DNA of 64,000 bases from Capitulum mitella. Its lineage: Eukaryota > Arthropoda > Thecostraca > Pollicipedomorpha > Pollicipedidae. A program made the position numbers and the translations under genes. The notes under the pieces were generated by a model, which worked only from the letters and a program-made list of their open reading frames with translations, made no database searches and had not been told where the DNA came from. Positions 14,421 to 59,850 of the stretch are shown in pieces (the first letter of the stretch is position 1; each line of letters starts with the position of its first letter). The stretch spans positions 42,023,891 through 42,087,890 of the forward strand of contig CP099839.1 in the NCBI GenBank assembly GCA_030062745.1, in the 5' to 3' direction.

Positions 14421-16160
14421 TACTCATACACACCTATACTTTGTTGCTAATCCTGACTTTCTACAAAATATTGACAAACTGACTCCCATATGAAAAATGG
14501 TGGCATCTGAAATACCCAAGTGTTTAGTTAGACCAAAGCACACAGATATCACTGCATGCATGATGTCATCAAAAATCACCACATGCAACTGATGATTTTT
14601 TAGAATTGTGGTTTATCAATGACAGCAATAACACTGCCTGTGAGCTGTAACTTTCAATCCCCAAGATTTTTGGCACATTTTAAATGAACCCCATACCATT
14701 ATAACTAAAGAAAGTAACTACATATAATAATCAGTTGCCAGTTTGATGAAACTGTCATGCGGCAAAACTGTGTAATAAACACAGACAAAGAAATATATTT
14801 GGGCATCCAGAACAATATCATTAGCACAGGAAAATGCAGTTCATGTAGCAAATAAAAGTTTGCTTCTAAGCAAATCAGTCAAGGACAATTCTGATGCAGG
14901 GGATCAGCTGTCTGATGTTCATGCTGTGGCTTCAACACCACTGAGCCATATAACATTAGAAGCATATCTTACACAAGGGTACCAAATCTAATGGAGGAAG
15001 TGGCTTCCTAAAAATGACAATAAGGGTTCTTGAGCATAACTATCTAGAGAAGTATCACCTACAAAATAAGATAACTGTGTCCAATGGCCATTACATGAAG
15101 AAAATGTGCAATGAATGAGAGAGAAAAAACTAAAATAGGAACATCATTTTTCCCAGAATATGATGAGTGGCACTCATTATTCCTTCAAAACCATTCTATT
15201 ATCAGAAGCCAATCACTTCTCAAAACAGGCTCTAAATATGACATGCTGTCAGTCATGAAATCCAGAAATGGCAACAATAGCAGTCAAGATAAGGGCTCCA
15301 ACAAAACCTTGGCATCATCCAACAACATAACACATACATTAATCCTGAACTACAAGTACTGACAGATATGATCACAAAATTAAGCATTTTTTGAAGGTCT
15401 TGTCCTCTATATCAAAACTGTACTGTCTACCTGCCTGATGACTAAAGTATACTGTAACATTGGCAATTACTTGACATCCAGTTTGATGCCAAAGAAACTG
15501 CCAAGTGACCAGACTCTTGATGACACACATGGTCCCATGCAAGACTTTGGACACCTGATCACAAGAGACTGTGTGTTTCCTATTTGGGGCCCACACAAAG
15601 AAATGAGCTAACTAAGGAAAAAACAGAAGCACCATAAATTAACATTTCAACCCAATGGCACAAAAAGTGGGGGGCGGGGGCAGGAGATCACAGCCCACTA
15701 ACTTTCTGAAATTTAACATTGACCCTATGGGCAATGACTGGAAAGAACTGGCCAAAAATGCTTATTTACCCCCCAACTGAAGAGGAGTTCTGTGCCCCTA
15801 CTCCAACCTACCCATAAGGCCACTAAGAGCAAATATTGCATCTGATTCCACACAGGGCATCTCTCTCCAAATTGCTGTACCTTCATCTTGAGTCTTCATG
15901 TGCTAACTTATTTATTCACTTATAAAAACACTTGGGGGTATTTCCTGCATCAATTAACTCATGCATGGAAAACACAGGCACACAAACATAACACATATTC
16001 ATCCATCCTACTCCACCTGTTTCTCCCCATGGCATTTCAGGGGTAGTTTGAAATCGCTGTCTGACACACTACGGAGTGAAGTAGGAAGCTTGTAGATGAC
16101 CTAACAAGGGGACAGCTACCTTATGTGTCACACTAGGGTTTGCAGCCTTACCTACCCCAT
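14421..16160. other. CpG-depleted intergenic DNA upstream of NOL9
   Basis: No gene or clear repeat is seen. The stretch contains only a handful of CG dinucleotides in about 1.7 kb while TG and CA are frequent, in sharp contrast to both flanks. One phrase near 15539 (CAAGACTTTGGACACCTGA) recurs near 16697 inside the next element. Confidence 0.6.
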
Positions 16161-19713: not shown

Positions 19714-20445
19714 TCAGTTTTTCGCTGATTTATCAGACGGGTCTCTCGTATCCGGCATTTCCCACGGACTGAAATCGGCCAGAGGATCGACGGCCTGCGT
19801 CAGCTCCTCTGCCTCCTGGCTCATCTCGTCATACTGTGGGCCCACCGCCCACAGCATGTCCACGTCGTACAGCGCGCGGGTGTCGCGGTCAAAAAGGTGC
19901 AGCGCAATGTTCACGAAGTCCATGGCGATCCAGTGCCGCGAGTCCTTGCCCTCGATCCGAGGCACCGGGTCGGACGACGTACGCTTCCGCTTGTACAGCT
20001 TCCTGAGAAACTGCGCCGTGGTCAGCATCTGCTGGTGCGAGCGCGCCGTCGCCAGCACCATGTGACTGACATAGGCGTGCTCCTCCGGCAGCCGGAGGAC
20101 GCAGATGTCCCGCAGGCCCTCTTCGTCCAGCACGGCCACCAGCTCGTGCACGTCGAAAACGCCGGTGCGGCCGCGCTCTGTGCTCCAGGCGTCCAGCGGG
20201 TCCCAGAGCGGCGCCTCGTCCACGGCCAGTCCGCCCTGCTCGGCCAGCTGCTCCTCCTCGTGCACGTCGCGAATGACACGCGGCCGCTCGCGCAGGCCAC
20301 GGTACCGGCTGGCCACGGAGCGCGGCAGGCGGCGCGCGCCGTCCCCGGCGTCGGCGGCCAGCGCGGCCGAGCCGGCCACGCCGCGCCACACGGACCGGCA
20401 AGGCGGAGCGCGGCCCGACAGACGCGCCAGGTGGCGCCACCACAT
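19714..20445 (-). CDS. MALSU1: MALSU1 / mitochondrial ribosomal silencing factor (RsfS family), 243 aa
   Basis: RsfS-family proteins bind uL14 of the large ribosomal subunit; the mitochondrial member MALSU1 assists large-subunit assembly. One uninterrupted frame from ATG at 20445 to the stop at 19714 gives 243 aa. The first in-frame ATG was chosen: the N-terminus MWWRHLARLSGRAPPCRSVW is Arg-rich, has no acidic residues and suits a mitochondrial targeting peptide. The RsfS domain spans about residues 96-205: FDVHELVAVLDEEGLRDICV, then RIEGKDSRHWIAMDFVNIAL, HLFDRDTRALYDVDMLW. The signature IEGKD..W...DF....H.F....R..Y....LW matches the family. A hydrophilic Asp/Glu/Ser-rich tail follows. No intron is needed. 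Flanks are a LINE relic on one side and CpG-poor DNA on the other. Confidence 0.92.
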   Translation of the reverse strand: MWWRHLARLSGRAPPCRSVWRGVAGSAALAADAGDGARRLPRSVASRYRGLRERPRVIRDVHEEEQLAEQGGLAVDEAPLWDPLDAWSTERGRTGVFDVHELVAVLDEEGLRDICVLRLPEEHAYVSHMVLATARSHQQMLTTAQFLRKLYKRKRTSSDPVPRIEGKDSRHWIAMDFVNIALHLFDRDTRALYDVDMLWAVGPQYDEMSQEAEELTQAVDPLADFSPWEMPDTRDPSDKSAKN

Positions 20446-20639
20446 GCCAGACGTTCGGCCGACAGTGGCCACTGGCAAGAGAGGAGGTCCAGTCAGCTGT
20501 CAGCGGCCGACGACACTGAGCCGATGATCGGTCATCACCTGACAGCAGACATCAGACTCAGTCAGCAGAGGGTAGTCAGCACAAAGTCAGAGGCTACATG
20601 AGTTGCCAGTGCAGAACTTTGTCAAATGTCAATCATTGG

Positions 20640-26640: not shown

Positions 26641-28731
26641 CTAGACGAACACCTTGGCAAGCGCGTCCGCCCCGGCCGACGCGATGTACGGCTTTGTGGG
26701 GTGGAAGCCCACGCAGTGGATGCTCTCGTCGCACTTTTTCCGGTGCGCCGTGATCTCCTGGACGCACTGTTTGTTGTCGAGGTTCCACAGCCGGATGCTG
26801 CAGTCGTGGCTACCCGAGAGCAGGTACAGACCGTTGGGATCCACCGCCAGGCTGGTGACGGAGTCCTGATGCGCCACCATCGCGTGCATCACCTTGCCGG
26901 TGACGTTGTCGTAGAAACGGATGTGGCGGTCCTCGTGGGCTGCCATCGTGACCGGCATGGTCGGGTGCGAGACGACGCAGTTGATCTGGTCGCGCGGCGC
27001 GCCGTCTGAGTTCTGGTCCGACTCCAGCTGCACCACCAGCTTGGAGGTCTCCAGGTCGTAGATGGACGAGCGGCCGCTGGTATAGGCCACTACCATCTGG
27101 CTGCAGTCCTCGTGGACAAAGTCCACTGAGGTGGGCAGACCCATGGCTGGGTCGGCCGTGTACGACTGCAGGAGTGGGGTCTTGCTGCCAGGATTCCACA
27201 GCTTCACAGTGCCATCTGTTGAGCATGACAGCAACTGTGTCTTCTGTGTGTGGAAAGCCAGTCCCCAGACAGCATCAGTGTGTTCTGCCAGCGTCTGACT
27301 CAGGACGTCCGGGTCATACGCATCATAGGGGTCTATGTTGGAGTTTGGCAGATTCCACACTCGCACTGTACCATCCAGGCCACCAGAATAGCACTGTTCA
27401 CCAGTTGGGTTCATGCTGACACACAAGACAGCACCCAAGTGCCCCCGGAACGTGTAGATCGGTTCCACGTCCAAGAAGGCTGACTTTTTGGCAGGAATAG
27501 TGCGCTTCAAGTTCCAGAGCTTCATTGTGTGATCCTCACTTGCCGTCACTAGCACAGGCTCAATGGGATGAAAGGCCAAGGCCCTTATGCCATCAAAATG
27601 GGAGCGGAGAGCATACTTTGCATTCCACATTTTTGAGTATGACTCTTTGTTTGCTACAACATCCTCATATGTCCCATCTGCCTCATTGGTAACTGTTAAC
27701 TGTGCTAGTTCTCCCAGGCCCATTTGTTCCAAGGCCTCATCATTGACCCCTACACCATACTGTCCAGAGTTGGTTCTGGCAGAAGAATGTTGATCTGTAT
27801 CAACCATACGCACACCACTATCTTCCCATGGATTTACCATGTTGCCAATGTTGATGTTGCTGAAGTTGAAGTCCAGGGACTTCAGAGCCATCACCATGCT
27901 TGATGCATCTGTTTCATCATCATTTGCACCCTTTTCCTGTTTGACAGTGTTGATTTCTTCACTTTTCCAGTCCTCATCATCATCATCCCCCTCATCCACC
28001 TCACCACCATCATTGAGGAAGTCAAAGTTCTCTAAAACAGCCTGTTCAGCTTCTCTAAGCATGTTTTCAGCTAAAATGCCAGCTCTGCTCTGATTAGTGG
28101 TCTTGTTCTGACCATCTGCCTTCACAGCTGCAGGCTCACTGTTTGCAGGAGGTGGACTGCCATTCTTCTCTTTCAATCCCAGCAAGGACCGCACCCTGTT
28201 TGATCTGACATCAATCACGGTGTCTGTGTACCCAATCTCATGCAAGTACTGCCTTAGAAGTTGTCTTCCTTGTCTCCACGAGATGTTGCTATTGGATGTT
28301 ATTAGCTGATCTCCCTCCATGATGTCTTCCTGGCTACCTTCATCAAAAACAGGAGGCTTCAAATCACCTTGAGAAAGTTCTGCACCATACTTCAATTTGT
28401 GGTACCTAGCACGCTCCTGCTTCAGAGCATGCTCCAACATCTTGATTCTCCTGACCAAATCATTCTTCAAATTTTCTTGGCCTTTTCGTTCACCCTGAAG
28501 GAAAGCGATCTTTGCTTCCAGTTCTGCTCTCTCCACATCCCACTTTGAACGTTCTAGCTCAAATTTGGCCCATTCATGCTGTATGTAGTGCAGAATTCCT
28601 GGGATTGAATATGCGTGTCTAGGATTCTCGTCTTGCTTGGATCCTCCAGCAGGCATTCCATCGGCCATGCCCCCAGCCTGACCGTTATGGTTTTGAACTG
28701 ACATGTCTGCCTCCCCAGTTGCTACTGTCAT
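26641..28731 (-). CDS. STRN: Striatin, full length, intronless (696 aa)
   Basis: Striatins are the scaffold of the STRIPAK phosphatase-kinase complex, binding PP2A-A/C, Mob4 and GCKIII kinases. The CDS is a single uninterrupted frame of 696 codons. Residues 41-120 hold the striatin N-terminal block: YSIPGILHYIQHEWAKFELE (caveolin-binding-like), then a coiled coil with LQGERKGQENLKNDLVRRIK and QERARYHKLKYGAELSQGD. Around 150-185 is SNISWRQGRQLLRQYLHEIG. Residues 185-370 are low-complexity and acidic, including a DDDDEDWKSEE stretch. Seven WD40 repeats fill 373-696. Drosophila Cka is the closest remembered homolog. Start choice: the first ATG; a second in-frame ATG is at residue 10. The lack of introns is odd for this family. 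Codons up to about residue 520 are AT-leaning and CpG-poor, while the remainder is GC- and CpG-rich. Confidence 0.95.
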   Translation of the reverse strand: MTVATGEADMSVQNHNGQAGGMADGMPAGGSKQDENPRHAYSIPGILHYIQHEWAKFELERSKWDVERAELEAKIAFLQGERKGQENLKNDLVRRIKMLEHALKQERARYHKLKYGAELSQGDLKPPVFDEGSQEDIMEGDQLITSNSNISWRQGRQLLRQYLHEIGYTDTVIDVRSNRVRSLLGLKEKNGSPPPANSEPAAVKADGQNKTTNQSRAGILAENMLREAEQAVLENFDFLNDGGEVDEGDDDDEDWKSEEINTVKQEKGANDDETDASSMVMALKSLDFNFSNINIGNMVNPWEDSGVRMVDTDQHSSARTNSGQYGVGVNDEALEQMGLGELAQLTVTNEADGTYEDVVANKESYSKMWNAKYALRSHFDGIRALAFHPIEPVLVTASEDHTMKLWNLKRTIPAKKSAFLDVEPIYTFRGHLGAVLCVSMNPTGEQCYSGGLDGTVRVWNLPNSNIDPYDAYDPDVLSQTLAEHTDAVWGLAFHTQKTQLLSCSTDGTVKLWNPGSKTPLLQSYTADPAMGLPTSVDFVHEDCSQMVVAYTSGRSSIYDLETSKLVVQLESDQNSDGAPRDQINCVVSHPTMPVTMAAHEDRHIRFYDNVTGKVMHAMVAHQDSVTSLAVDPNGLYLLSGSHDCSIRLWNLDNKQCVQEITAHRKKCDESIHCVGFHPTKPYIASAGADALAKVFV

Positions 28732-29400
28732 GACCAGACCTTGCAGTCTTTAATTCGTCGAGGATGGGTTTACCTCGGTTTGCAAACGACGCATGAATTT
28801 CAATTGTCCATTAACTAGGTACCACTCAGTCCCCCACGAACATACGAACACATCACAGATTCGTCACTGTACTCGCTGGTTTCTTATAATCCAAAATTCC
28901 TGTTCTTTCGTTACGTAGGAAAGATCACACACCGACGGAGGAAATCCACGTAACCCTGCCAGGGCGATGACAGACTGCTTAACCCACCCGTGAGAAATAA
29001 ATGCGCAAACGCACTCAACCATTAAGTGGCGCACAACACCACCAATCGTCGCCAAAGCTCCGTCGCCAGGACGGGACTTCAGTGTGTATGAATATCTGAA
29101 CATGAACGTTTCCCTATTTGTTTGGATGTTCCCTTAGTTTTAGAGGGCGGGGTCGAGGTTCTAGGGTTCTTATTCCTGTGTAATACCCCAGGAATGGGAC
29201 AAGGCGTCATCGTTTTAAGTGCTTAGGCACCAGCGAGTCTAAAAGAAGAGAATGGAGGAAACGCTGCCTGGTAAGTTGTCTGCCGAAGAGACTGGGGCTT
29301 TGAGTCCAAGTCGATCCGAACATGAGTCCCAGGTGTTTTGGCCTTGGACTTCGGTGAACTAATTCATAATTCTTTATTTTAAGATCAGGCTCACAAAAGC
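28732..29400. other. Striatin upstream region
   Basis: CpG content is normal here, unlike both neighbours, which fits an unmethylated promoter region for striatin. No TATA box is obvious. No other gene is recognised. Confidence 0.4.
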
Positions 29401-30750: not shown

Positions 30751-30908
30751 TTAGGTTAGGTTAGGTTAGGTTTGGCTAGGTTAGATTAGGCTAGGCTAGG
30801 CTAGGCTAGGCTAGGCTAGGCTAGGCTAGGCTAGGCTAGGCAAGGCTAGGTTGGCAAGGCAAGGTTAGGTTAGTTTAGGTTAGGTTAGGTTAGGCTAGGT
30901 TAGGTTAG
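30751..30908. repeat. Interstitial telomere-like tract (TTAGG)n/(CTAGG)n
   Basis: About 158 bp of pentanucleotide repeats. TTAGG units flank a central run of about a dozen CTAGG units, with a few AAGG and TTTAGG variants. TTAGG is the ancestral arthropod telomere repeat, so this is an interstitial telomeric tract, and it supports an arthropod source. Confidence 0.85.
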
Positions 30909-37800: not shown

Positions 37801-39362
37801 ATGGCGGAGCTGGAGAGGCAGCGTAAAGCCATGGAGGAGGACTTTGGCAAGCGACGGGCCAAGTTCAAGGAGATGTTTCTGCTGAAGGAAGGTAAATAAG
37901 TCTGCATTGACCTCGTAGACTGGCTTTTGTTTTCTTAGTTTACCTATTCCTCGTTTTTTTCTAGTTTTGTGACCCGTCACTGTTTTGTTCGTTGTGATCT
38001 TCATTCGGACAATGCTGGCTGAAGAAAAGGGATTTACCATTTGCGCAGGATTTCGTGGGAGTGTAATCGCATCCTGCGGTTTTTTGTCGCTCACGGGCGC
38101 GGTGGGGAAGCCGTGATTCGGCGGATTTCCGGGCTGCGGTAGATGCTCGGCTTGATAGTGAGACGATCTCCGACGGCAGTGGCGCCGTGTCGGCTCCTGC
38201 AGGAGAGCTGAAGCGGCCGAGGCGGGCGTTCGGTCCACCGGTGCAGGTGAACAGTGACCGACTGTGCCGCGCCGCCCGCAGAGGAGCTGAAGAAGGAGCA
38301 GGAGCGCGTGGCCAGCCTGCAGCAGGAGCTGGACGACGCGCGCACCCAGCTGGCCGTGGCCGAGGTCACGTTCGAGAACCAGCTGGACGTCGAGCGGCGC
38401 AAACACGCCGAGGAGATCGCCTCCATCCAGCACCTGGAGAAAGGTACGGCCCGTCCCGTCCCTCAGAGACGTACAGCCCCGTCTCACCCGCCACCGCGTG
38501 AAAGGTACGGAACCTTCTCACGCGTCACGGTGAGAAAGGTAGAGACTCTTCTCCTTTAGCGCCTGGAGAAATATGCCGTCCTCACGGCCGCCCGTCCAGT
38601 AGGTGGAGACAGGCACCGCCCGTGTCGCCGGCCTCATGCAGTGCGTGTTTAGGGGTCGGGCCTCACCGCGCCCGAGCGTGCGTCCGTCCATCACCTCACG
38701 AGTGCTCGCGGTCCTTCCTGCCTCACGTCGGCGCTAACTTCCATCGAACGCGTACGAAGCCATTATCACCGGTTCACATACTTTGTGGTCATCAGTTTCT
38801 CCCCAATGGGAAGTCCTCAATTTAAACATAGACGAGTAAATCACAGTAAATGATCTGTCATGATGTATCTTATCTCGTATATCGTAGTAAATCGTTTTTC
38901 GTTAGGATTTACGGACAAGTAAACTTTATTGGTCTTGGCGAAATTAGGTGATGGCCTCTCCGCTCGTTCATCATTTGCACTTAAGCCACGTCCTTTGCGG
39001 ATGATGAAACAAGCTCGGCGAAATATATTTCGTGACGCTGCCAGATGATTGGTTTGCCACATTGTCGGGGCGGATCGAGCATTCCTCATTCGAGTGGGAT
39101 GTTTGTACGCGAGTTTTCACGAATGCACAGTCGAGTGGAAAGCTTGAATGCCAGTTTTATTCGGCCTCTGAGACCGGGCCGAGGCTTCAAACGACTGTTA
39201 AGAATATCGTAGGTGATGGCCTTCTCGGTGTTGTTGTCTGTTGCAAGCTGTGAGTGGTCTCTTCCTTCATTCTGTGTGTTTTGAAATGTTTCGGAACAAA
39301 GGAAGAAAATCGACGTGAAAATGAACCATTGCAGGCAAGAATCAGGTTGCCTTCCAGCTGTA

Positions 39363-39393
<31 letters not shown>

Positions 39394-42300
39394 GCGAGCG
39401 TGCGTGCGCGTGTGCGTGTGCGTGCGCTTGCGCGATGCGCTTGCGTATGCGCGTGTGTGCGGATGTGCTTCGTTGTTCCCCGATATGTTATGCCGCTCAG
39501 TGCCTCATAAGACTTACTCAGGCAGTCGATAACAGCCGTAGGTTTCATCATTAGAATCAACAGCATCAACAGTAGAAGGCATCCTACAGTAGGTATACAA
39601 CATTTGCCATTGATCCCATCAGCCGTAGGCAGAATACAGAATGTTTACTGGGCGAACAGGGTCTTGAAGACAAGTCTCAGCCGTCTTTGTCGTCGGAGAC
39701 TTGGCTCTCTTGCACCTCGAAATGCAAAGAAGGTAAAAGTAAGTCTTAGTATGGGTAACGAATTATTGTTGGAAAATCCCATCGCATTGACCCGTGCGAA
39801 AACTGCTTAGAAGCCAGTAGAATATGAATGAGTCTTTACGAATCTTCTCTGCGTTTGAACAGATCCCGGTATTGCGTAAGTGCTAAAATGGGCTCTGTTA
39901 GTGGCTATGGATTATGTCTGCCTGTTTCGGGCATGTCTTTATGTTATCTGATTCGCTGTACCAAAACGTAATGCCTGGTCTGGCCGTCCGCTGAATGCTT
40001 GGCCCGGCCGCGCGGTTTCGTCAGAAGGGTCCGCCGTTCTTTGACGTCATCTGCGTCATCGGCGCGGGGACCTAAATCCCTGCACCTGAACTACGTCACG
40101 TGTCAGTGGCCTGGTCCGGAACCGGGCCACGGCCGGCGCCGCTGTCTGCGCTGACGTCAGCAGCGGCCGGGCTCCAGTCCGGTCCGCCTCGGCCCGCTGC
40201 GGTTTGCAGGACTGCCGGCCGTGACGTCTGACCTCGGGTGGCTTGATGACGCACGGACCGAACCGAACTGAAGCGGACCAGGCAGGACCGGACCGGACGG
40301 GACCGGACCCGGACCGGACCGGACTGAACCCGGACCAGATCAGATTAGATCAGATGACGCCAGACCAGACCAGACCAGACCAGACCAGACCAGACCAGAC
40401 CAGACCAGACCAGACCAGACCAGACCGGACCGGACGGATCGACGGACGGACGGTTTGCCGCGGCCGGCGTGGTGGACCGGCTTGTACTCCCGGTACGCTC
40501 TGTAACCGTGAATGGAGAACTGTTTTAAAAGGTGGCGTGGCAAAGGTAAGCCCGGTCAATGTCATCGATTCAGTTTTCGCTCCCCCCCCCCCAACATTAT
40601 TTTCTCACCTGGATTTCAACTACTTCATTTTCGATTTTGATGGAAATATCATAGAATAGCCTCCCGGTTTTCTCTCAGATGCAGATTTACATAACGGCAT
40701 TGTGTAAACCAGCATTGAAACGTGCAGCTAATTAAACGGCACACGCCGCACACCCTTCACATATTGTGTAGCGTGCAGGCGCGGGGACCGCTGCTCTGAA
40801 CGCCAGTCATTGAAAGGCTCACGTTTTCGGCAGCCTTCCCGCCGATGAAAAGAGCGTCCAGTGAGGCTGGTATGCATATGATGTATGTTGTAGGCCAGGT
40901 CCTATCTTGAAAGTATTTGCGGGGAGTAAGATCGATTTCATTTATTAATTTCTGAAAGATAACGTGGTAGTATGCGTGGGTAGTATTTGAATTGAAATTT
41001 GGTCGGAAGCTGCCTGAGGTAGTTTGCCGCCGGCGCCGTTGTGCATTTACGCCATTGTTTTTAGCTGAGAGGTGGTAGGGAGGTACCTACCCCCAGTCAG
41101 AGTTAGCTTGAGAGTTGCCTAGCTATTTTGGGGCCTGATGGGGCCTTTCAGGACAGAAACATCCTGAAAGGCACTGGACTGGAGCGCTGTATGATGACAA
41201 TCCATTATCTGTATGTGTCTGCCGTGCCCTTTATTTTTAATTTTGTACCTCATAACCTTGCAAAAAAGTAGAAATCATTGTTTGGATGGTTTGGTGCCAC
41301 ACCCAATTTTGGAAACACCACTGCTAAAAGTTGGTGTGGCATTCCACACCTACTTTGGAAGTTGGTGTCGCGAAGGCCATGCCCTCCACATGGCGTTGTC
41401 CACGTACGTCTGTAACGGAGGTTCTGCGTCTATTGGAAGTCGTCTGGGCCTGGTTCGCCTGGTCCGGGCGGGGCCGGAGCCAACTCGGCCGACGCGTCAT
41501 TGGACCGGCGGGACCCGGCCGCCTCACAGTGGCCAGTCGGACCGGCGGCCGTCTGCCGGTGCCGCCGGTTTCGTCCATTGTTTCGGGTCCGCGTCAATGC
41601 CGCCGAATATCTGGGCGTCGTCTGCGGCCGGATACGCCCTGCCGGGACGGCCGAAACACATTCACGGCCTGTCGGCGTGGTCTTTTCGGCGGCTGCGGGT
41701 AGTTGTATGTGTCGCTCTGATGGCTGTGATTGCTCTGCGGATGGTGGGAGGTGGGGGGATGTCCATTGTTCTGGCCAGGTGCTTTTTCACGGGACAGCCA
41801 CAGCTCTCTTTGTCGTGGTGGTCACCGGACCGTTTGCCTCTTCGCATGGCACGCGGCCGGTGTTTTCCATTACCAGACGTGGAAGAGGTTTGCGCCACCT
41901 CAGCACTCTTCAGGATCTCCAGTCGACCAGACGCGGGGCGCTCCTTGCAGGGCGGGACGCGTCGTGGCGGGGTGTTCGTGTACCAGGTCACATGACGTCA
42001 GGTCGCCCCCCGCCCGCCACGTCACTGGGCGCCACGTTGGCTCCTGTAGCGGGGCGTGAGTCGGTTTGCGAGTGGCGCATCGGGGCGCATAGGAGAGGGA
42101 ATTCGGGGCGCACAGTGTTCACGTGTCTGGACTTCAGGGCGTCAGGCCCGCCTGCTGACAGGTAGGCACACACGGTTGCCTCGATTGATACATTCTGCCG
42201 TAGGGCGTTCAAAAACTAAGCTGTAACGTCCCCCAGCTTGCCTTTATGCTTGATCGACCTTGCTAGGCACACCAGGCTACCCGCAGCGATCTCGTCCGCT

Positions 42301-45300: not shown

Positions 45301-48300
45301 GTGTTGGAAATTTGGTCTTTGTTCTTGGTGTCGGAGTATATTCTTTGTTTTGGAGTGCAAGATTTTCCAACGAGTAATACTGGCTTAAATTAGCATTCTT
45401 GGTGTAAGTCAGTTATAATATCATGCCTATTACTGAAGGCAGATAGCCATTTGCTTGCAGATTTAGATATTTGTCAATATGGTTATTATGTAACTTTGAT
45501 GGGGCACAGGGTCAGTCTTTTGGAGCATAAAATGTTTTGGAGGACCTTTTTGCGTTTTTCGGCAACAAAGAACTACGCCTTTCCCAACTCTGCTTCCGAC
45601 TTTGCATTGACTTTCCCTAGCCTGACGATGAGCGATGTCCGGCAGGCCCAGGAGGACACGGAGATGATGCGCTCGCTGGTGATCCCTCTGGAGGAGGAGA
45701 TCCAGGCGCTGAAACAGAAGCTGCGCACCACGGACGCCCAGCTGCAGGTGCAGCTGACGGCGCGTGAACAGCTGATCCGCGCCGACCAGCTGCTGGCGCA
45801 GCTGCGGGAGGGCGGCCGGCTGGAGGAGGCGGCCGAGCAGCTGCGGAAACAGCTGCCGCCCGAGCTGGAGCAGGCGTCGGCCGAGCTGGCGCCGCACATG
45901 TACCTCTACATAGCCGTGCTGGAGGCGCAGAAACTGGTCCTCTTCGACGACGTCAAGTACGGCAAGTAAGTGGGAGCGCGGCACTGCAGCGCAGTGTTTT
46001 GTTTCTCGTGAGATGGGTGCGTTATGGATTTATCCATCCCTTTCAGCGCATGGCTAGTTACTTTATGCTTCCCTGAAGACTGTTTGCAATGCACGTCATG
46101 ATTCACTACCAGAACTACTTTTGCGTCTGTCCAAAATGTACGGAGACAGTGGATGGAAGATTGTGACCGGTCCTTGGTTTGAAAAACATGGGGATATACG
46201 AATACTTATGTTCGGACTCATAATATTAGTGACAGTAATTTTGGTGAAGTAGCCGTAATCCGTTGAGAATGTAATATTTTGATTAGGGCTTGCCGGAGAA
46301 GCTGCGCGCACTGTGTGTACTCCGGAATCGGTCTCCGACCCCGAATAAGTTCGTGACGGACGTCGTGTGTCCCATTCCGAGGTGATCTGTGTTTTGTTGT
46401 AATTCTCCCGTAGTGAGTCGTGTTCGGATGTGACCTGTGTGTGTGCGGTTTAACCTGGCCCCTGATTTAGCGCCGCTGCCGGTGTGTCCTGTGCCCCGTT
46501 ACGACCGGGCGGCCGGCCGGTTCGGCAGGCAGATGCAGGCCGAGCTGCGGGCCCAGGTGGAGCAGGAGCGGGCCGCCCTGGCCGAGTCTCGGCTGGCCTG
46601 CAAGCACGCCTCGGACCGTCTGCTGGAGACCCAGCGGCAACACCTGGCTCAGACGCGCCGTCTGCGGACCGCCCTGCCGGCCGAGCTGCTGCCCCTGCTG
46701 GACGCCCCGCCGCCCTCCCCGTCCGTCAGCCAGCGCAGCCTGGACACGGACCGGGTACAGGTCAGTACCGCCCCTACCCCTCCTCCCTCCGTCAGCCAGA
46801 GTAGTCTGGACACGGACCGGGTACAGGTCAGTACCGCCCCTACCCCTCCTCCCTCCGTCAGCCAGAGTAGTCTGGACACGGACCGGGTACAGGTCAGTAC
46901 CGCCCCTACCCCTCCTCCCTCCGTCAGCCAGATTAGTCTGGACACGGACCGGGTACAGGTCAGTGCCGCCCCTACCCCTCCTCCCTCCGTCAGCCAGAGT
47001 AGTCTGGACACGGACCGGGTACAGGTCAGTACCGCCCCTACCCCTCCTCCCTCCGTCAGCCAGAGTAGTCTGGACACGGACCGGGTACAGGTCAGTACCG
47101 CCCCTACCCCTCCTCCCTCCATCAGCCAGAGTAGCCTGGACACGGACCGGGTACAGGTCAGTACCGCCCCTACCCCTCCTCCCTCCGTCAGCCAGAGTAG
47201 TCTGGACACGGACCGGGTACAGGTCAGTACCGCCCCTACCCCTCCTCCCTCCGTCAGCCAGCGCAGCCTGGACACGGACCGGGTACAGGTCATTACCGCC
47301 TCTACCCCTCCTCCCCCCGTCAGCCAGAGTAGTCTGGACACGGACCGGGTACAGGTCAGTACCGCCCCTACCCCTCCTCCCTCCGTCAGCCAGAGTAGTC
47401 TGGACACGGACCGGGTACAGGTCAGTACCGCCTCTACCCCTCCTCCCTCCGTCAGCCAGAGTAGTCTGGACACGGACCGGGTACAGGTCAGTACCGCCCC
47501 TACCCCCCTCTCCCCTCCTCCCTCCGTCAGCCAGAGTAGTCTGGACACGGACCGGGTACAGGTCAGTACCCCCCTCCCCCTCCCTCCGTCAGCCAGAGTA
47601 GTCTGGACACGGACCGGGTACAGGTCAGTACCGCCCCTGCCCCTCCTCCCTCCGTCAGCCAGAGTAGCCTGGACACGGACCGGGTACAGGTCAGTACCGC
47701 CCCTACCCCTCCTCCCTCCGTCAGCCAGAGTAGGCTGGACACGGACCGAGTACAGGTCAGTACCGCCCCTACCCCTCCTCCCTCCGTCAGCCAGAGTAGT
47801 CTGGACACGGACCGGGTACAGGTCAGTACCGCCCCCTACCCCTCCTCCCTCCGTCAGCCAGAGTAGTCTGGACACGGACCGGGTACAGGTCAGTACCGCC
47901 CCCTACCCCTCCTCCCTCCGTCAGCCAGAGTAGTCTGGACACGGACCGGGTACAGGTCAGTACCGTCCCCTACCCCTCCTCCCTCCGTCAGCCAGAGTAG
48001 TCTGGACACGGACCGGGTACAGGTCAGTACCGCCCCCTACCCCTCCTCCCTCAGTCAGCCCGGCGTAGGCTGGACACGGACCGGATGCAGGGATGTGGCT
48101 GTGCTATTGTGTCTTAATTGTACTAGAATTTGTTAAATGGCTGCGTCTTACTGTTGCGTTAGTTGCTGCTGATGGTCTTTCCTGGCCCCGTATACGCACC
48201 TCTCCGCGCAGTTTTGAAACGTTCAGAGGTCGGAGTATGTGGCTGGTCTGATCTCGTTCCTGTCTGTTTTGTCCGCCCAGAGTGACGCTGAAGCTGTGTC

Positions 48301-51300
48301 GGACTCGGCCTGTCGACACGTCAGCTTCCTGTCGCTGGACTCTGTCTGCTGTCTGACGCTGTCTGCGCTGTCTCCCCAGAGTGACGCTGAAGCTGTGTCG
48401 GACTCGGCCGGTCGACACGGCAGCTCCCTGTCGCTGGACGTGGCCGAGTCGTCGTCGAGCGGCAGCCAGCGGCCCCCAGAGCGCGCCGACGCCGGCTCGG
48501 GTCAGTCGCCGCTGCGCCGCCTCGTGGGGGGGGGGGGAGGAGTGGAGTGGAGTGGAGTGGAGTGGAGTGGTTTGTTGCGCCCATGGCCCTGTAATGATTA
48601 ATGCTTGGAGTTTGCCGTGTTTCTCTCATTTTTCTGTCTTTCTTTTCCTGTAAACCATCCTTTTGTCCCTTTTTGGGTGGGGAGAGAGGTTATCGATTCC
48701 TAGTTATACGTGCTGCGCAGCGTTTGATATTCGGATGAGTTGTCCAGTAAGCGTTGTTCCAAAATTCCGGATATCGGGACCACTGGTGGTATGCACAAAC
48801 CATCATCGAGACTAAACTGACATCTAGATGTATCAGTAAAGGATTTGCATCATCCTTCCGGTTTCCTTTTTTTCTCCTTTTTGTCATAAGTTTTCTGGGG
48901 GATTCTACGCATCTGTCGTCGCAATATCTTCGTCCAATCGAACTGACTCTGAGTCCACGTCTGACTGGTTCCGCTAGTCCAGGGGGCGTTTTATGGTAAA
49001 CAAATCATTCCATGTTACGTTGCAACGGGCCCAGACGTATTGCCATCCTCGCGTTGTCTCTCGAAGTTCAGGACTGTGGGATAGTACCCGTCTGCCGAGC
49101 TTTGGTTATGATGATATACCGGCTTACAGCGCGGTATCTAGTCTGTTGCCGCTTTGGGGTTGCGTCTGGTACGTACTGTTCATTACAGCGGCTGTGTCGG
49201 GGTCTGCGGTCCACCGTCACTGCTTAACCTGTCGCGTGGTGCGCCTGTTCCCTGTGCGCCAGTCCAGGGCGTGAGCTGAGGTGGGACGGGATCTGGGCAG
49301 TGTGTGACGCCTGTGTTCCCTGTGCGCCAGTCCAGGGCGTGAGCTGAGGTGGGACGGGATCTGGGCAGTGTGTGACGCCTGTGTTCCCTGTGCGCCAGTC
49401 CAGGGCGTGAGCTGTGGTGGGACGGGATCTGGGCAGTGTGTGACGCCTGTGTTCCGTGCGCCAGTCCAGAGCCTGAGCCTGGCGCCCGGGGAGCGGGTGG
49501 TCAGCGAACGCGAGTGGAGTCGGCTGTGGGACGAGTTGGCCACTAATAAAACCGGTGCAGGTGTGTGCCTCTGGCCGGACGAGCACTGCCCCGTCATTTC
49601 TCTGTCTTGTCGGCCGCGGTATGTCTGTGCGGAGCTTGCGGTCGGTGTGGTGTAAATATTTATAGTTTTTTCTGCATGCGACCTCATATCAAGCTGTGTG
49701 CTTGGAAGCTGACATTCGAGTGCTCCAGATATCGGTGATCTGGCTCATAGCATGCCGCGCATGAAGGCTACGCGGTGACCAAGTGGCCCTTGAAGGCGTT
49801 TGCACGTTCCTTGTAGAACCGTCCCAGACCTGGTGCTGAACACTCTGTTGCTTTTCTGTAGTCTTTGCGGTATATCCTCAGTCAAGAGCAGCTTATCGGC
49901 CTCAGATTACGTGATTCTGCGACGAAGCACCATATTTGCGTCTGTCGCGATGTTCATTTCGACGACGGCACCTGGCACCCATAACGATCTCCTTCTAACA
50001 AGACTGCATACCTTTTTGTTCTGTCTTGTTCGTTCCTGTCTTGCCCCCTATATTTTATCTTTTTCGCATGCATTGGGACACTTTCGTGAGTGGATATGAC
50101 CGTCGCATTCAGGGTTGGAAAAGGTGTTGATTTTTGGTGCTGAAGATCACCAACAAAAAACATGTTCTTCAAAAAGTTTGGTCTTGTGCCTCCATCAAAA
50201 AGTTTCACTGTAACCATGTTGACGAATATCTAACTCTGCAACCAAATGACTATCTCCCTTCGAATATCTAACTCTGCAACCAAATGACTATCTCCCTTCG
50301 GTAACAAGCAGGTATGATGTTATAACTGACATACACCAAGAATACCAGCGTAAACCAGTATTCCTTGCAGAATTTTGTATTCCAAAACAAAAATTGCACT
50401 CCAGCACCAAGAACAAAAAACAAATTTCCAACCCTGGTCGCATTCGATATACTTACGTAATAGTTGTACGTGTGCTGCAGCAGACGCGGTAATCGCGAGT
50501 CTTTTTGCGCGTGGCACGGAACATTTCTGCGGGCCCCGCTGCACATTACCGTCGCCCCAGTGCGCCACCGAGAGCAGAACAGTGCTCTGATCCCTTCCTG
50601 GAATATGGATGTCGTCGGCAAAGTCCTGATTTGCTTTCCGCGCCAGCCCTGATGTGCTGCGGCATCCGGCTAATTCTCTCTGGGAACAGAAGTCTAACGC
50701 TCAGTTTCGGCGTGGTGAAGCTGGGAGCCGCAGCTGCAGGAGCCGGAGGCGATGTAACCTCGTGTTTCTGCGCCATGTGGCCGGCGTGAGCGCTGCGACA
50801 GCTGTGAGTCGCAATTGCAGCAGCCGCAAGCGGTGTAACCCTGTGATTCTCACAGACGGCCGGTGTGAGCGCTGCGCCAGCTACGAGTCGCAGCTACAGC
50901 AGCTGCAGGCGGAGCTGAAGGCGGCCGAGAAGCGGCGCGCTGAGCTGGGGCGGGCGCTGGAGCGGCACCAGCAGGACCTCGGCCGTGAGGCGCGCTACCG
51001 CAAACAGACAGAGGAGGAATGGCAACGACAGGCCGAACACTACGAAAAACAGGCACGTCGGCGCCCACCCAGGTCCGGTCCACCCCGGCCCGGCTGGTGC
51101 CGCCTCCCCTCCTGCCGACCGACACACTTCCAGGACATTGCGGGCCGCACGCGAGGATTACGTTGCACAGTAATGGGCCTTGGTCATATACGACCCTGTT
51201 ACGTAGTCTCCTGTAGCCTGTTGTAGCTCGCTGTACGTAGCCTGTTGATGCTTTTTATGGATAAGTACTGGAAGGTTTGGGAAGGATATTTAATTCGGGC

Positions 51301-54300
51301 TACTTTGACTGCTCCTGTCATGCGCACGACGGCGTGGTCGAGACAAGCCACGGTGACGGCAGCGGATCCCAGTCGCTGTACGGCACGTGCCGTTCCGACG
51401 CGCTGTGTCCGCGCCTCAGATCAGCGAGCTGTACAAGGCGGTCGAGACGGGCGAGAAGCGCTACCACGAACTGCAGCAGAAACACAAACGGTTCGTCTCG
51501 GAGATCCAGGACAAGCTGCGTCGCCTTACCGCGGACAGACACGTCGTGCAGCAGGAGCTCAACAGGTGATGCATCAGCAACAACCGACCCCAGCTTTGCT
51601 GAGAGTCGCGTTGGTACGGACTTGGGAATGGTGGATTGGTCGGAGGGGAAAAGGGAAACTGAAAACGCCAGGGTTATGAGTTCACGGGTATTAGAGTTCA
51701 AGGGAAAATAAGAAATCGAAGCATAACAGAAGAGTCTGAGTGTCAGGTTTCTAACAAGAAAGATGAAGAAGAAAATAGTTGTCTCCCTGGTTGTGTTCTC
51801 GTCCTCCATTTAGCACCGGTGTGTCATGTTTGTTCGCTTTACGCCTTGTCGCACCGGTTGGAGTCGTCTGAGGTGCCGTGCCCGTGTGGAGTCGCATCTG
51901 ACCTGTTAACCGCCGTCTGGCCTGTGGTGGTGCGGCGTGATAACTGGCCGCCTGTGACTGTCTCAGGCTGCAGTCGGAGAACGACACGCTACTCGGGAAG
52001 TACAGCGCCTGCTCGGGCGAGCTCCAGAACGAGTTCATTAACCTGCCCGACCAGGTGGAGGTCAGTGGATGGCTCCGCGGGCAGGCGGACGCCGCTTCTT
52101 CTCTCGAGCACTGGCCTTTGTCTCCCCTGCCTCCTCCTGGGGGGCGAGTGTCGGCCGCCCCAGGGGCAGTTGGGCGGCCGACATTACCACAAACCGACAG
52201 GGCTTGTGGTATCGCTTGTCTTGTCATCAACTATAGCCTCATGACGGGATAACGGCAAGACCTGTCCGTACGTATCGACGACATGTGTTTTTTGGGCAGA
52301 GCTTGTTTCAGTGTCTCGGACAGCGTGAACCCGCAATCTGGGACCGGATGTAGCGAGAGGGCTCAGCGTGCTCCGTTCGTTCCCGAACAGCATCAGCACT
52401 CTGCGCTTCTTCGATGCAGATGGAATTTGGAATGCATGCGTTTGCTCTCTGCTTCCGCATGTTTAACATGTGGCCAGGGCAGGCGGTGTCGAAGTGGTCC
52501 CTGAGCTTACAAACGTTCGGACGTCACGGGCTCATCTGTCTGTGGCTTGTTACCAGCTCTGTTTGATGTTGGCCCTCCGGCGAACTGGATGACTGCTCCG
52601 ACTGACCGGAACCAATCACCAGGAGCTTCACCTGATGCTACTCCGGTACAAGGAGGAGTTGATCTCCGCCAAGATCGCGCGCGAGCACGTGGAAGAGACG
52701 CTCCGGAACCAGCTGGCGTTCATGAAGAACGAACAGGATGCGCTGCAGCACGAGAAAGACGCTCTGAACGACGAGCTGGTGGCGGAACTGACTAAGCTGA
52801 GGTCAATTGAGGGATCATTGTAGAGATCGCAAGGGTCATGGATTTATCCGTCCACATAGAGATGACGTGTCTTTTTTTTGCCGCATGAATTTATCAGCCT
52901 GGTAAGTTGCAGCAGGGCGCGGACACCTGCGGCAGGGAGCAGGTGTCCCTGATGAGTCGCCTCTGCGTCAGAGAGATGGTGGCGTTGAGCTGCCTTTGCG
53001 GCAGTGAGGTGACCCTGATTAGTTATCAGTGCAGCAGGGAGGCAGCGCGGGGCTGACGCTGATGAGATGTTTCTGCGGCAGGGAGGAGGTGACGCTGATG
53101 GACAGCGTCAGCTCCGAGCTGCAGGCCGAACAGTCGCGCCGTCAGGAAGCCGACAGTCAGCTGACGGCGCTGCGTGAACAGCTGAGCCAGCAGACGGCCA
53201 TGAACCGGCAGATGGTGGCCGCCCTGCAGACCCAGCTCGAGGATCAGAGCTCAGCCAAGGTGGGCGGCCGGCACCCGCTCCCCCTCCCCTCTCGTGCACT
53301 CAGCTGCTGATCGCTTTGGAGAAAACTCCTTTTGAATATGAAACCGTGGTCTCTGAAGTGCGTATGTATTTGGTGAGCCGAAAGTCATGCTGTGAACGAT
53401 GAAATCATGCCGCGAAATAGGAATTTATCTTTTAAATATTTCTTTGTTTTCCTGGTCTTTACTGTTGCATTCACCTCCAACACCATGATCTTGACAGCGG
53501 CAGTGATGAAAACCGATGAATAGTACCATGGATTAGAAGAATTTAGTCTTTTCTCGATCAACTGTTCACCGCATTTTTCATTATGGAGTCAGGTTTTAAG
53601 CTCTGTGCTAATTCTGTTGAGACATTCGCCTGCCACCAGTCGTCTCTCCAAGAGGAGGTGTCTAGACTGAAGACCAAGGTGGCCACCTTGCAACTAGACT
53701 TGGATAACTCCGAGGCGGTACAGAGGGATTTCGTCAAGCTCTCACAGTCACTACAGGTTAGTGCGTGGCGCGGTCGGCTGTGAAAGCCGGCCAGATGCTG
53801 TCTGGTACCAACGAAGCCCATTGTGTGCGCGGGACGTTTTTGTGACTTTGTTACGTATGGCTGCTCTTTGGCAGACGTCGGTGTTCACAGACTTATCGAG
53901 AACGGATTGAGCCCGTACAACATGAAGCGTAATAAAACAGATGATCCACGTTTGCAGAAGGAAAGCTTATCGGTCGTTCCTCGTCCTTGGACGCGATTGT
54001 GGTAGCGCTGAGGGGAATTCCTCTTCAAAGGCTTTGATTTCATTGCAGCTTTGCCGTTTACAAAATATTATCCGGATACCTGGATACAAAATATGGATAT
54101 CTGGATAAAATATCCATGATATTCATGGATATCATGGATACAGAATAAGTCTGGGATGCTTGGTCACTATTACTGACCATTATTATTTAAATGTCTTGAG
54201 GTACGTGAAAAGCCTCAACTTTTCGAGATGACTTGGAGATCTTTTGTGTTGCGTATTTTTGCGCTTGGCGTGCCGCCCTACGTGCTGTGGTCGATTACGG

Positions 54301-55301: not shown

Positions 55302-58300
55302 TCACGGCCGCCGGTGTTTGGGCTGCCGCAGCTTCCTGCCCTCGCCGGAGAACGAGCTGAACACGGCCGCCTCCGAGCTCACCTGCAACACAGCGCCGGA
55401 CACGGTCAGGCGCGCCGCTCCGGCAGCTCCGGAAACCCGCCATCGCCATCGCCTGGAACTGCTATACCGAGCACAACGTGGGACCATCAGACGGTCGTCG
55501 AGCTAAACTGCGCGCAAAACGCCATGAAAATGGGACCATTCGAGACGATTATCAGAGTGGGTGGTTTCAACTCAGTGCAAGCTGCGTCGGGCCCACTGTG
55601 CACGTGCAGTGCCTCCACTGTGCAGTATGCCGTCGGTGACCGAAATGCGACCACCACTGACCGGTGCGGGCTTCGGCGCAGCATTCCTGAGAAAGCGCAG
55701 GTAGCCGATCTGGTAGTCGTAGTCGGGAATTCCCCGCACACGAGGTCCATTCGACGTGCTCGCCTTGGGCGCGTCCAAATTCTTCTGTTTGCCATCCAGT
55801 CTGCGAAAACGTCCGTTTACAGAAGTTCGCGGAATACAACATGACACGAACAGCGGCAGGTGGTAACGCGATTCTCGCACGATATCTACTGTCGTAGCTT
55901 AACAGAACAAAAGCCACACGCCATCGAACAGGTGTTATTTGCCCGAAACCGTGGCTTTTTCTGTCGTGTATCCCGGACGTTTGTCGTCATTCGTCTGACT
56001 ACTTAACAGCAGGAACAACAGCGCGTGCGGTCAGGCACGGTAACACGTGACACCCACCGGAGACCTGAGCCTTGGAATGGTACGAAGCCGGTCGGCTCTG
56101 GCATCTCGTGCTCCTCGACTGGAGCCTGCTGGGCGGGCAGCGGCCGTTCCGGCTCCTGGTAGCCGACAGGAGCAGCAAACTCCACCTGGTGGCGACAAAG
56201 GTAACGTCAACAGCACAGGACGCCGACAGGCGGCGCTGTAGTCCCGGCTCTCCGGCGGATATCATACCTCGCTACATGTGTTTGGAACAACCATTCGCAG
56301 AACGTACGAAGCCCACGTATCCGCCTGACAATGCAAATTTGTTCCTTCGAAACAAGAAGCAACCGCCCCTTCTGGCAATGTGAATTTTGAAGGATTGCCA
56401 CTGTACACGATTTCCCGATAACCAATACATGACCACTTTGGTGCGCAAACTCGCAGCTACTTGTCTAATTAGCATTTTTCAGTTGAAATCAGCCTCCTTG
56501 GACCCAACAAATGAGAGGGGATTCCCATTTGCGTGATCTAACTAGAATCCCGATGTCCCGTCACACGCTGCTCACATTCATGTCGCATTCGATGATGCTG
56601 ACGGCGCGGCCTGGCTTGGTCTCCTGCACGCAGAACTCGTACACCTTAGCGTTGTACGGGATAGCGATGACGTCGCCCGTCGTCAAGCAGGCGAAGTTGC
56701 GCAGCGCGTTCTCCAACACCGCCTTGGGGTTGGTGATGTCCAGGAAGTCGGGCGACTGCGGCTGGAACTTTGAGAAGGTGGCCACCGGCAGCGACACGCT
56801 CTCGACCGTCAGCAGCGCGCCCTCCTCCAGCAGCAGGTTCCGCATCATCTGCACCAGGCCGCACGTTGTCAAGCTGGCAACAGCTGAGTCAACGGGGACG
56901 GTGTGCACTATGACGAACGGTGGCTACAACCGCAGCACACGCTACGGTACGCTACGGTCAATGCGGCCAGGCGGACGAGGACCTGGATGGGAGAATCTAG
57001 TACGTGACACACACTGGCTTTACGTCGCAGGTCGAGTGACAAACTCTGGGCCGAGACCCAAGGGACCCGCTCGTCTGCGTGGCGCAGACGAGTTGGGCGG
57101 CAAAACAAAGATCCTTTGGTGCCATCTGGCTCGATACCGAGGCAAACTGCTTCGCGTTTGGAAACATACGGGTACTGGTCAGGGTCTGCACAACACGATC
57201 GGGACAGCATGGACTTGAATCCCAGCACTACCCAATTCCGCACGCTTGTCCAAATTTACGCACAGAAAAATGTGGTGTAGTATACTTCTAACAAAAGCAA
57301 ATGGGAAAAACGTCCCATCAATCACGAAAAAAGGATGCCATCGCATAAATCGACATGGAGCTTCCGCATAGCATGGCGCCTGGTCGCCATCTAGCAGCTA
57401 TATGGAACCCCCATTACTAATGTTGTCGCATCAATTCGCTTTACAGACGGCACTACCGCAATCAACAACACAACCCGAAAGGGACAGTCAGCCAGTTCAT
57501 TCAGCACCAACACAAGCCGATATCTGGTGTTGCTGCGTGCCCGGGGACCCCGCCGGGCCACGTACCCAGTACGGCAGGTACACCTTGCCCTCGTCGGCGA
57601 CAAATTCCAGCACGCCGCAGTGGGTGACGCGGTCCGCCCGCCGGTTCGTCAGCTTGAACAGCATGGGGTAGACGACGTTGAGCCGCGTCAGCTGGTCCAG
57701 TGCCGACGGCGGCATAATAACTAGGAAGGCAGAACGAATGGTGTCACGCCCCTGCTCCGTGCAAACGCTCCATGCGATCACGAAGCCTGGTTTCATGTTG
57801 ACGAACGCTTGACACTCACACTGCACAATCACGCCAGGTCACTGGTAATTGCGTATCCGGCACTGGAATGGTCGCTTATTACATGCAAGGTGAAAGTGGA
57901 GCGAAGTTTAGTGTACGCTGAGCATACAAGCCGGCAGTATTTGATGACCACTGATCATTTTTCGGGATTACAGGAATAAGTGGAATTAAAATAAAATTCA
58001 CGTACCAAAAAACAAAAACCATCCATATACAATGCCTCTGTCCTGTATATAACTTGATGTTAAACACATCATACACTGGGTGTTTAAACTTCACAATAAC
58101 ATGGCGAGGGCAACAACGACATGACGAGCGGAACAACACGGTACAGCAGTTGTACTGGAAAAGTCTAGGAGTTGGTGTCACATGAATTCAGATGGAATTC
58201 CGCTTTATCCATTCCTTGTCACATGCACAGCGGTCGGATCTGAGAAGTACAATACTGACCGGCCTAAACAAAGAACAACTTAACCAAACAGGACTGCAAA

Positions 58301-59311
58301 TCAGAGACAAACAAAACGGCGCACCATCTACTACCACCCTATGCACCCACAGTTGGTTTCGAAAAAATTAGGCCCCATTCTTGGTTGGCCAAGGTTGGCC
58401 ACATGACATCAATTTATCGGAAATTTTGTAACGCTGCCCAACAGGGTTGGACAAGTTGCTGTTTTTTTTTTTTTGTGTTAAAAAGCACCGGAAAATATGT
58501 GCTCCAAAAGGCATTTTATACTCCCAAAGTCTGATCTTTTGCGTTCATCAAAAAGCTACATTATAATCATGCTCACAAACTGATAACTTTGCAAGGAGAG
58601 ACTGTGTCTACATTCAGTAAGAAGCAGGTATGATGCTATCACTAACATACACCAAGAACGCCAGCTACCATTACTACTCTTTGCAAAATGATGTACTCCA
58701 AAACAAAAATTAAACTCCTGACACCAGGAACAAAAACAGAATTTCCAACCCTATTGACAAGGGTTACAAGACGCAAATCAGGACGTAGGTGTTGCGTGAT
58801 TAGTTTCTTGGCTGCGTTAGGAGCTATGGATGGAATTTTGATCAGTGATACTGCAGCAGCCGATAAGCTACGCTGATCTGTGAATGTAAGCATCCCAGCG
58901 ATGTATGGCTCCACTTAGCAATGAATGCTTGCGCACTTTTATTATTAATTCCACGACTTTCGTTGGCCAAGACAATCCGCCAAACAGAGCAACCCTTTCC
59001 AAAACAAAACGCACATGGAAAATTCCCAGGCGCAAAAAACTGCTGGAAAACCACGCTTTTTTCACCGAAGTATAAATACAACGCAACACTAACTGCAGTC
59101 ACATACATCCCGCACAACCTTGAACTCGCGAGCCACGACCAAAAAGCGACTTCCACTCGAGCCCCAGTAAAGGCGTGTCGGGTGCGCCAGACTCACTTTT
59201 GCCGCCCTTCTCGACATCGGTGCGCTCCTGCCCGGGCAGCATCGACACCGAGTAGCACCTGTACTGGGTGTTGAACGGCCGCAGAGCGTCCGGGAACATC
59301 GGGTATCCAAA
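55302..59311 (-). CDS. UFD1: UFD1, p97/Npl4 ubiquitin-recognition cofactor (start exon not found)
   Basis: UFD1 with NPL4 recruits polyubiquitinated clients to the p97/VCP unfoldase in ER-associated and other degradation. Six exons on the minus strand: 59311-59197, 57720-57566, 56848-56576, 56185-56058, 55800-55662, 55382-55302, phases consistent, 296 residues. Conserved blocks: [48 protein letters not shown], then [12 protein letters not shown] and [20 protein letters not shown], and [11 protein letters not shown]. Both p97-binding SHP boxes are present (FQGSGLRL near the exon 4/5 join and FSGEGRKL near the C-terminus). Human UFD1 has 307 aa, so only a few N-terminal residues are missing. 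They must lie in a small start exon upstream of the acceptor at 59312, which I could not identify. Confidence 0.93.
58442..58752 (+). mobile_element. MITE family A in UFD1 intron 1
   Basis: About 311 bp from CAGGGTTGGACAAG to GAATTTCCAACCCT, sharing GAAGCAGGTATGATG, CATACACCAAGAA and CTCCAAAACAAAAATT with the copy at 50110. The flanking 8-mers match poorly (4/8), so this is an older insertion. Confidence 0.75.
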
Positions 59312-59850
59312 CTGCGGACAGGCCACACGGACGTCACACCGGGCACACACGGCCCGTCAGGTGACGCGGCGGCTAAGCTAGCGGTCAGCGGCCTCTGTCG
59401 TGTGGGACTATGTCTTTCCGGCTGTGGGTGAAAGTGATCACAGTCACAGATGAATCAAATGAACGACTGACTGTTTAACGAGCATCGAAAAACAGTCCTA
59501 CGTTACAGATTTTCGAAAGACGGCGGAGTACGGCCGATTCTTTCTCCTCCATATTTTCACTTTGTTGTTTTAAATACCTCGCGTTATTTCGACACAATCA
59601 ACCTCATAATTACGCCCCGTACCTCCACAAAGTTCTTTCAGCAATCCCAGTTCGTAAGTTACATTTCAGACATGATAAGTATCCTACTTCTGTATGAAAT
59701 AAGCATGACAATCTATTTCAACTATCTGCAATTCGTCAAACTCTGCCTTCCAAGTAGAAAAAAAGAATGAACTGCCAAAGAACATGCGCCTAAACATGCT
59801 ATGACTGGTAGGCTTTCAGCATCTGCAAAGGCCATATCCAGCCCCCCCCC
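59312..59850. other. UFD1 upstream region
   Basis: CpG content is normal. It should contain the UFD1 promoter and the missing start exon, but no ATG with a fitting donor stood out. Confidence 0.35.

Follow-up and report, generated by a model that had tools for sequence, protein, structure and literature searches.

A mirage-type minisatellite repeats the exon 5 splice donor about twenty times in a rabaptin gene of Capitulum mitella

When the end of an exon and its splice donor are repeated some twenty times in tandem, which copy is joined to the next exon, and does the protein lengthen with the choice? This question is raised by a minisatellite of Capitulum mitella, analysed here in a window of 64,000 nucleotides, the whole stretch of DNA examined (assembly GCA_030062745.1, contig CP099839.1, positions 42,023,891 to 42,087,890 of the forward strand; all positions below are those of the window).

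The gene carrying the array is rabaptin, as an earlier sequence-only reading had named it. A model of 15 exons, set by eye and then checked by script, gave 826 uninterrupted codons with consistent phases and with every acceptor ending in CAG; its start is partial, four residues before the first Met. The 826-residue model matched the entire profile of Rab5-bind (PF09311; E 3.1e-54, 185 bits against a curated cut-off of 33.6), together with Rabaptin (PF03528; E 3.1e-15, 56.3 bits against a curated cut-off of 26.7) and FYVE (PF01363; E 6e-16), while a match to ATG16 remained below threshold; exons 1–8 read by hand gave a Rabaptin match with E 6.9e-18. Thirteen of the 14 donors are GT, intron 8 being a predicted GC-AG intron (CAG/GCACGT at 51053), and the smallest intron of the model measures 261 nt. 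GC content is 0.524 for the window, and GC3 of rabaptin is 0.889. A literature search combining rabaptin with barnacle returned no paper, a search of Rfam at its gathering threshold gave no match, and a tRNA scan found nothing. The other genes placed in the neighbourhood are as follows.

11289-14423, minus strand: CLP1_P gene (domain match), which we take to be NOL9-like
19714-20499, minus strand: open reading frame with an RsfS domain (domain match)
55305-59312, minus strand: UFD1

No solved structure matched the CLP1-like open reading frame. An uninterrupted frame of 702 residues with Striatin and WD40 matches (26641-28749, minus strand) may be a retrogene, since genes for striatin are usually rich in introns. 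Elsewhere in the window, a 76-bp minisatellite of 5.0 copies (590-966, 98% matches) seems not to reach a possible acceptor on the minus strand, located by eye near 551 and about 40 bp away; a TAGGC pentanucleotide repeat of 31.6 copies (86% matches) occupies 30752-30908, and short repeats of CGGAC and CCAGA type are found at 40253-40439 in rabaptin intron 2.

The features at the end of exon 5, all on the plus strand, are listed below.

46529-46760, plus strand: rabaptin exon 5 up to donor 1 (exon model, consistent phases)
46713-48091, plus strand: boundary-spanning 66-bp minisatellite, 20.8 copies (Tandem Repeats Finder)
46761-46766, plus strand: donor 1, GTCAGT (motif scan and exon model)
46827-47567, plus strand: donors 2-13, each sharing the phase of exon 5, with GTCATT at donor 9 (47289)
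47624-48028, plus strand: donors 14-20, with exon 5 phase only in donor 18 (47889)
48050-48096, plus strand: diverged final copy, its donor position without GT
48380-48500, plus strand: rabaptin exon 6 (exon model)

Tandem Repeats Finder reported a single array with a period of 66 and 94% matches, in keeping with the ladder of about 20 donors described earlier. Specifically, ACAG/GTCA followed by G or T and then T occurs 20 times inside the array, from 46761 to 48023, and nowhere else in the 64-kb window. The repetition of the exon 5 end together with its GTCAGT donor was confirmed at 19 of the 20 sites, which share one 9-mer (CAG/GTCAGT); donor 9 has CAG/GTCATT, and the final copy reads GCAG/GGATGT at the donor position. 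Exons 6 and 10 also end at a predicted GTCAGT donor. The first twelve donors are exactly 66 bp apart, as had been claimed (eleven intervals of 66 bp, then 75, 62, 66, 66, 66, 67, 67 and 67), and the pyrimidine-rich tract ending in CAG, also part of the earlier claim, is present in every donor-to-donor unit. The length differences among these 19 units fall, by eye, in the C-rich tract, and in 14 of the 20 donors the preceding 31 nt are identical to those of donor 2. The array starts and finishes on the exon-like part of the unit. A duplicated segment made of the exon end and 27 nt of intron should leave an array that finishes on the intron part; the sequence after the last copy, with at most 9 of 27 positions matching the unit start, disagrees. 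The original segment may have stopped close to the junction, or the array may have lost its end or had it replaced.

Some further ideas on the unit were considered and set aside. A potential donor hairpin (CGGGTAC-AGGTCA-GTACCG at 46752-46770 and in the following units) is intact in 16 of the 20 donors and, being common to most of them, is unable to tell one donor from another; it appeared in the lowest-energy 60-nt fold of just one of five folded donors, a competing stem being preferred in the other four. Instability driven by quadruplexes was dropped, the minus strand of the array having 22 looser two-G motifs but a single strict G4 motif. An origin of the unit in phages or prokaryotes is unsupported, since a 24-mer from it had no exact match in viral and prokaryote collections.

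As to the reading frame, the exon 5 frame runs without a stop across 46434-47933, and 14 of the 20 donors (1-13 and 18) keep the exon 5 phase, both as in the sequence-only reading. Each of these 14, joined to exons 6-15, gives a complete frame of 826 to 1202 residues; translation would end early from donors 14-17, 19 or 20, and at residue 748 if intron 5 were retained. Over the ladder, exon 5 would range from 232 nt to a maximum of 1494 nt, with intron 5 shrinking from 1619 to 357 nt. Added units would sit between the matches to Rabaptin (residues 164-336) and Rab5-bind (434-744), as exon 5 ends at about residue 358.

The open frame is weak evidence of coding. The 66-bp unit is open in four of its six frames, and among dinucleotide-shuffled units (n = 2000) any one chosen frame was open in 43.5%, while 92% had at least one open frame out of three; a single open founder makes the whole array open. 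Openness as a sign of coding was dropped for this reason. Of the 19 donor-to-donor units, the 14 with a length of exactly 66 bp were used to count substitutions, and the five of other lengths were excluded. Fifteen changes from the consensus were found (5 synonymous, 10 not; 3 and 9 when distinct changes are counted) against an expected synonymous share of 26-31% (p 0.77 and 1.0), and the nine donor positions hold one of the 15, a shortage that is not significant (p 0.37). The changes among copies look neutral, neither the peptide nor the donors giving a sign of selection, at low power. Fifteen changes in 924 bases correspond to about 1.6% divergence from the consensus in these exact 66-bp units, which suggests that the array is young.

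Copies of splice junctions are not confined to exon 5. The additional copies, all on the plus strand, are as follows.

38424-38618, plus strand: weak, degenerate copies of the region around the exon 2 donor
48260-48340, plus strand: in-frame copy, 99 bp upstream, of the region around the exon 6 acceptor, with an acceptor at 48281
49246-49478, plus strand: 68-bp repeat of 3.5 copies over the exon 7 acceptor
50779-50833, plus strand: copy of the exon 8 start, 79 bp upstream, the aligned part without AG
52927-53100, plus strand: degenerate copies of the region around the exon 12 acceptor

At acceptors 6, 7 and 12 the aligned copies cross the junction; the acceptor 8 copy begins just inside the exon, and no copied splice site could be placed for exon 8. 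The one copied acceptor of exon 6 gives a full frame, as does one of three each for exons 7 and 12, the other two in each case leading to stops; both copied donors of exon 2 lead to stops, and one lacks GT. Spacings of 66 and 99 bp are divisible by three and those of 68 and 79 bp are not, a mixture expected of a frame-blind process.

Each junction was aligned to its neighbouring intron and compared with 4000 control positions. Five of the 29 rabaptin junctions passed the 2.5% control level (donor 5 and acceptors 6, 7, 8 and 12), donor 2 joining them at 5% (six of 29), and none of the 13 junctions of UFD1 and the NOL9-like gene passed the same levels. With GC-matched controls, taken on one strand and in donor orientation only, five junctions passed at 2.5% (binomial p 0.0007) and five at 5% (p 0.014), donor 2 falling short of the latter at 0.062. 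A separate repeat search over 37.5-55 kb found 11 families, merged to nine footprints, six of which contain a junction, where a shifted gene structure gave 2.9 on average (p 0.017). With junctions as the unit of counting, the result was six of 29 against a mean of 5.0, which is not significant (p 0.43). The enrichment of repeats at rabaptin junctions depends on the measure used. As selection keeps the exon half of one copy, old junction duplications may also stay visible longer. Regarding the proposal that rabaptin gains steps of 22 residues, such steps are possible by phase and spacing, but openness, substitutions and the other junctions lend them no functional support.

The array is a mirage-type repeat, a kind already known, with an unusually long and mostly frame-keeping ladder of donors. 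It includes the exon boundary at 46760/46761, its copies carry AG/GT splice signals at 20 sites, and further boundaries are affected within the same gene, at acceptors 6, 7 and 12. Amphioxus mirages (Adh3, the globins BflGb6 and BflGb9, TnC and PGBD5) are likewise boundary-spanning tandem repeats with splice signals in many copies, as described in PMC3087553 and PMC3902484. They are reported on either side of introns at several loci (PMC3087553, PMC3902484), whereas here several junctions of one gene are concerned. In amphioxus both 5' and 3' boundaries are duplicated and copy number varies between haplotypes (PMC3087553), two BflGb6 haplotypes having 6 and 3 units according to that account as against about 20 in rabaptin. 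By analogy, the copy-number polymorphism anticipated for the rabaptin array is likely (PMC3087553). Unlike the amphioxus repeats, the array keeps its frame through 13 donors, and it is known here from one genomic sequence.

On balance, we consider it moderately probable that the array is a young mirage in which donor 1 is mostly used and later donors yield at most minor in-frame isoforms. A segment with the exon 5 end and its donor would have been duplicated in tandem and spread by unequal exchange or slippage. The spliceosome would mostly use donor 1, the one next to exon 5, for the join to exon 6, the other copies leaving with intron 5, and occasional use of later in-phase donors would give minor isoforms with added 22-residue steps rich in Ser, Thr and Pro, for which VSTAPTPPPSVSQSSLDTDR is the predicted peptide. 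Duplication of a junction would be nearly harmless provided that the exon-adjacent site remains used, and the array may be tolerated because both splicing outcomes do little harm. The predominance of donor 1, itself somewhat probable, is argued from amphioxus, where Adh3 data and globin RT-PCR are reported to suggest regular splicing despite mirages (PMC3087553), and the TnC and Adh mirages are likewise said not to disturb splicing (PMC3902484). As 19 of the 20 donors share one 9-mer, donor 1 has no advantage in site strength, and predicted accessibility does not single it out (0.45, against 0.26-0.67 for the array donors and 0.07-0.55 for the 14 rabaptin donors). Against it, the resulting intron 5 of 1619 nt compares with a median of about 562 nt for the gene, and a preference for the intron-proximal site when two donors are comparable, described in PMC6002489, would favour late donors of the array.

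The shared 9-mer and the intron-proximal preference, together with IFI6 and human paralogs, make it plausible that several donors are used at appreciable levels, giving a mixed set of nested rabaptins differing by 22 residues; we regard this as rather unlikely. In IFI6 (6-16, G1P3) an exon-end repeat similarly supplies multiple donors, in units of about 12 bp and four-residue steps, as against 66 bp and 22 residues per unit here; Turri is said to have described this minisatellite with multiple splice donors in 1995. Two downstream repeat units of IFI6 are reported to serve as donors and to give isoforms (PMC4526556), so that donor use there is real, whereas the rabaptin array is known from genomic sequence. 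Human boundary repeats likewise stay exonic or turn intronic, with alternative splicing, and, according to PMC2812944, 66% of repeat-linked intron modifications in human paralogs also had transcript support for the repeat in an exon, a backing by transcripts that sets them apart from the array. The full frames from 14 donors and the 31 nt shared before most of them fit such use as well. However, the substitutions carry no protein-level constraint on the unit, six of the 20 donors lead to stops, and amphioxus mirages are reported to splice normally (PMC3087553).

It is quite improbable that a late donor such as donor 18 is the main one, which would make most of the array exon and an ordinary coding VNTR in a linker; a cDNA or peptide with VSTAPTPPPSVSQ would then be expected. 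The frame open over 46434-47933 and the array's exon-like start and finish agree with this, as does the donor 18 intron of 491 nt, close to the median of the gene. Yet the substitution pattern is neutral, exon 5 would reach 1360 nt, and donors 19 and 20, closer to exon 6, yield stops. A homology between the unit's pyrimidine tract and the Pro-rich codons of exon 5 was dropped, the likeness being not significant (p 0.12 and 0.36).

Small exons and introns formed by the units of the array are very improbable. The potential introns of about 35 nt noted earlier are present (35 nt if they end at GTCAG/, 39 nt if at CCAG/, only the latter keeping the frame), but their size by itself is insufficient against mini-exons, because intervals across at least two units are available (39 + 66 = 105 nt and up). 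Each unit has a donor with CCAG/ 39 nt on (13 codons), and intervals of 39 and 105 nt keep the frame. The process would resemble intron gain by tandem duplication, in which duplication across a boundary copies the splice signals, as in the AGGT model and the potato RdRp case (PMC4974935), although the interval within a unit here is a mere 35-39 nt. The exon-like piece measures 27 nt, the 39-nt interval contrasts with the 261 nt of the model's smallest intron, and by eye no clear branch point was seen in the unit. Zhuo reportedly traced human introns to tandem arrays in 2007. That the copy number is affected by an assembly artefact is likewise highly improbable: such arrays are difficult to assemble, but the units carry private variants and the gene holds more repeat families.

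The main value of the array is as a natural test of donor choice by position only, 19 identical 9-mer donors at near-regular spacing making position testable at constant sequence; how the intron-proximal of equal donors gets favoured is, according to PMC6002489, not known. More speculatively, and in our estimate unlikely, the 20 donors may act as a natural ruler in which position alone sets the choice, yielding graded rabaptin lengths that depend on copy number and are multiplied by the in-frame acceptors at exons 6, 7 and 12. Repeat copies are shown at several junctions of one gene, and a host other than lancelet, if true, would widen the known range of mirages.
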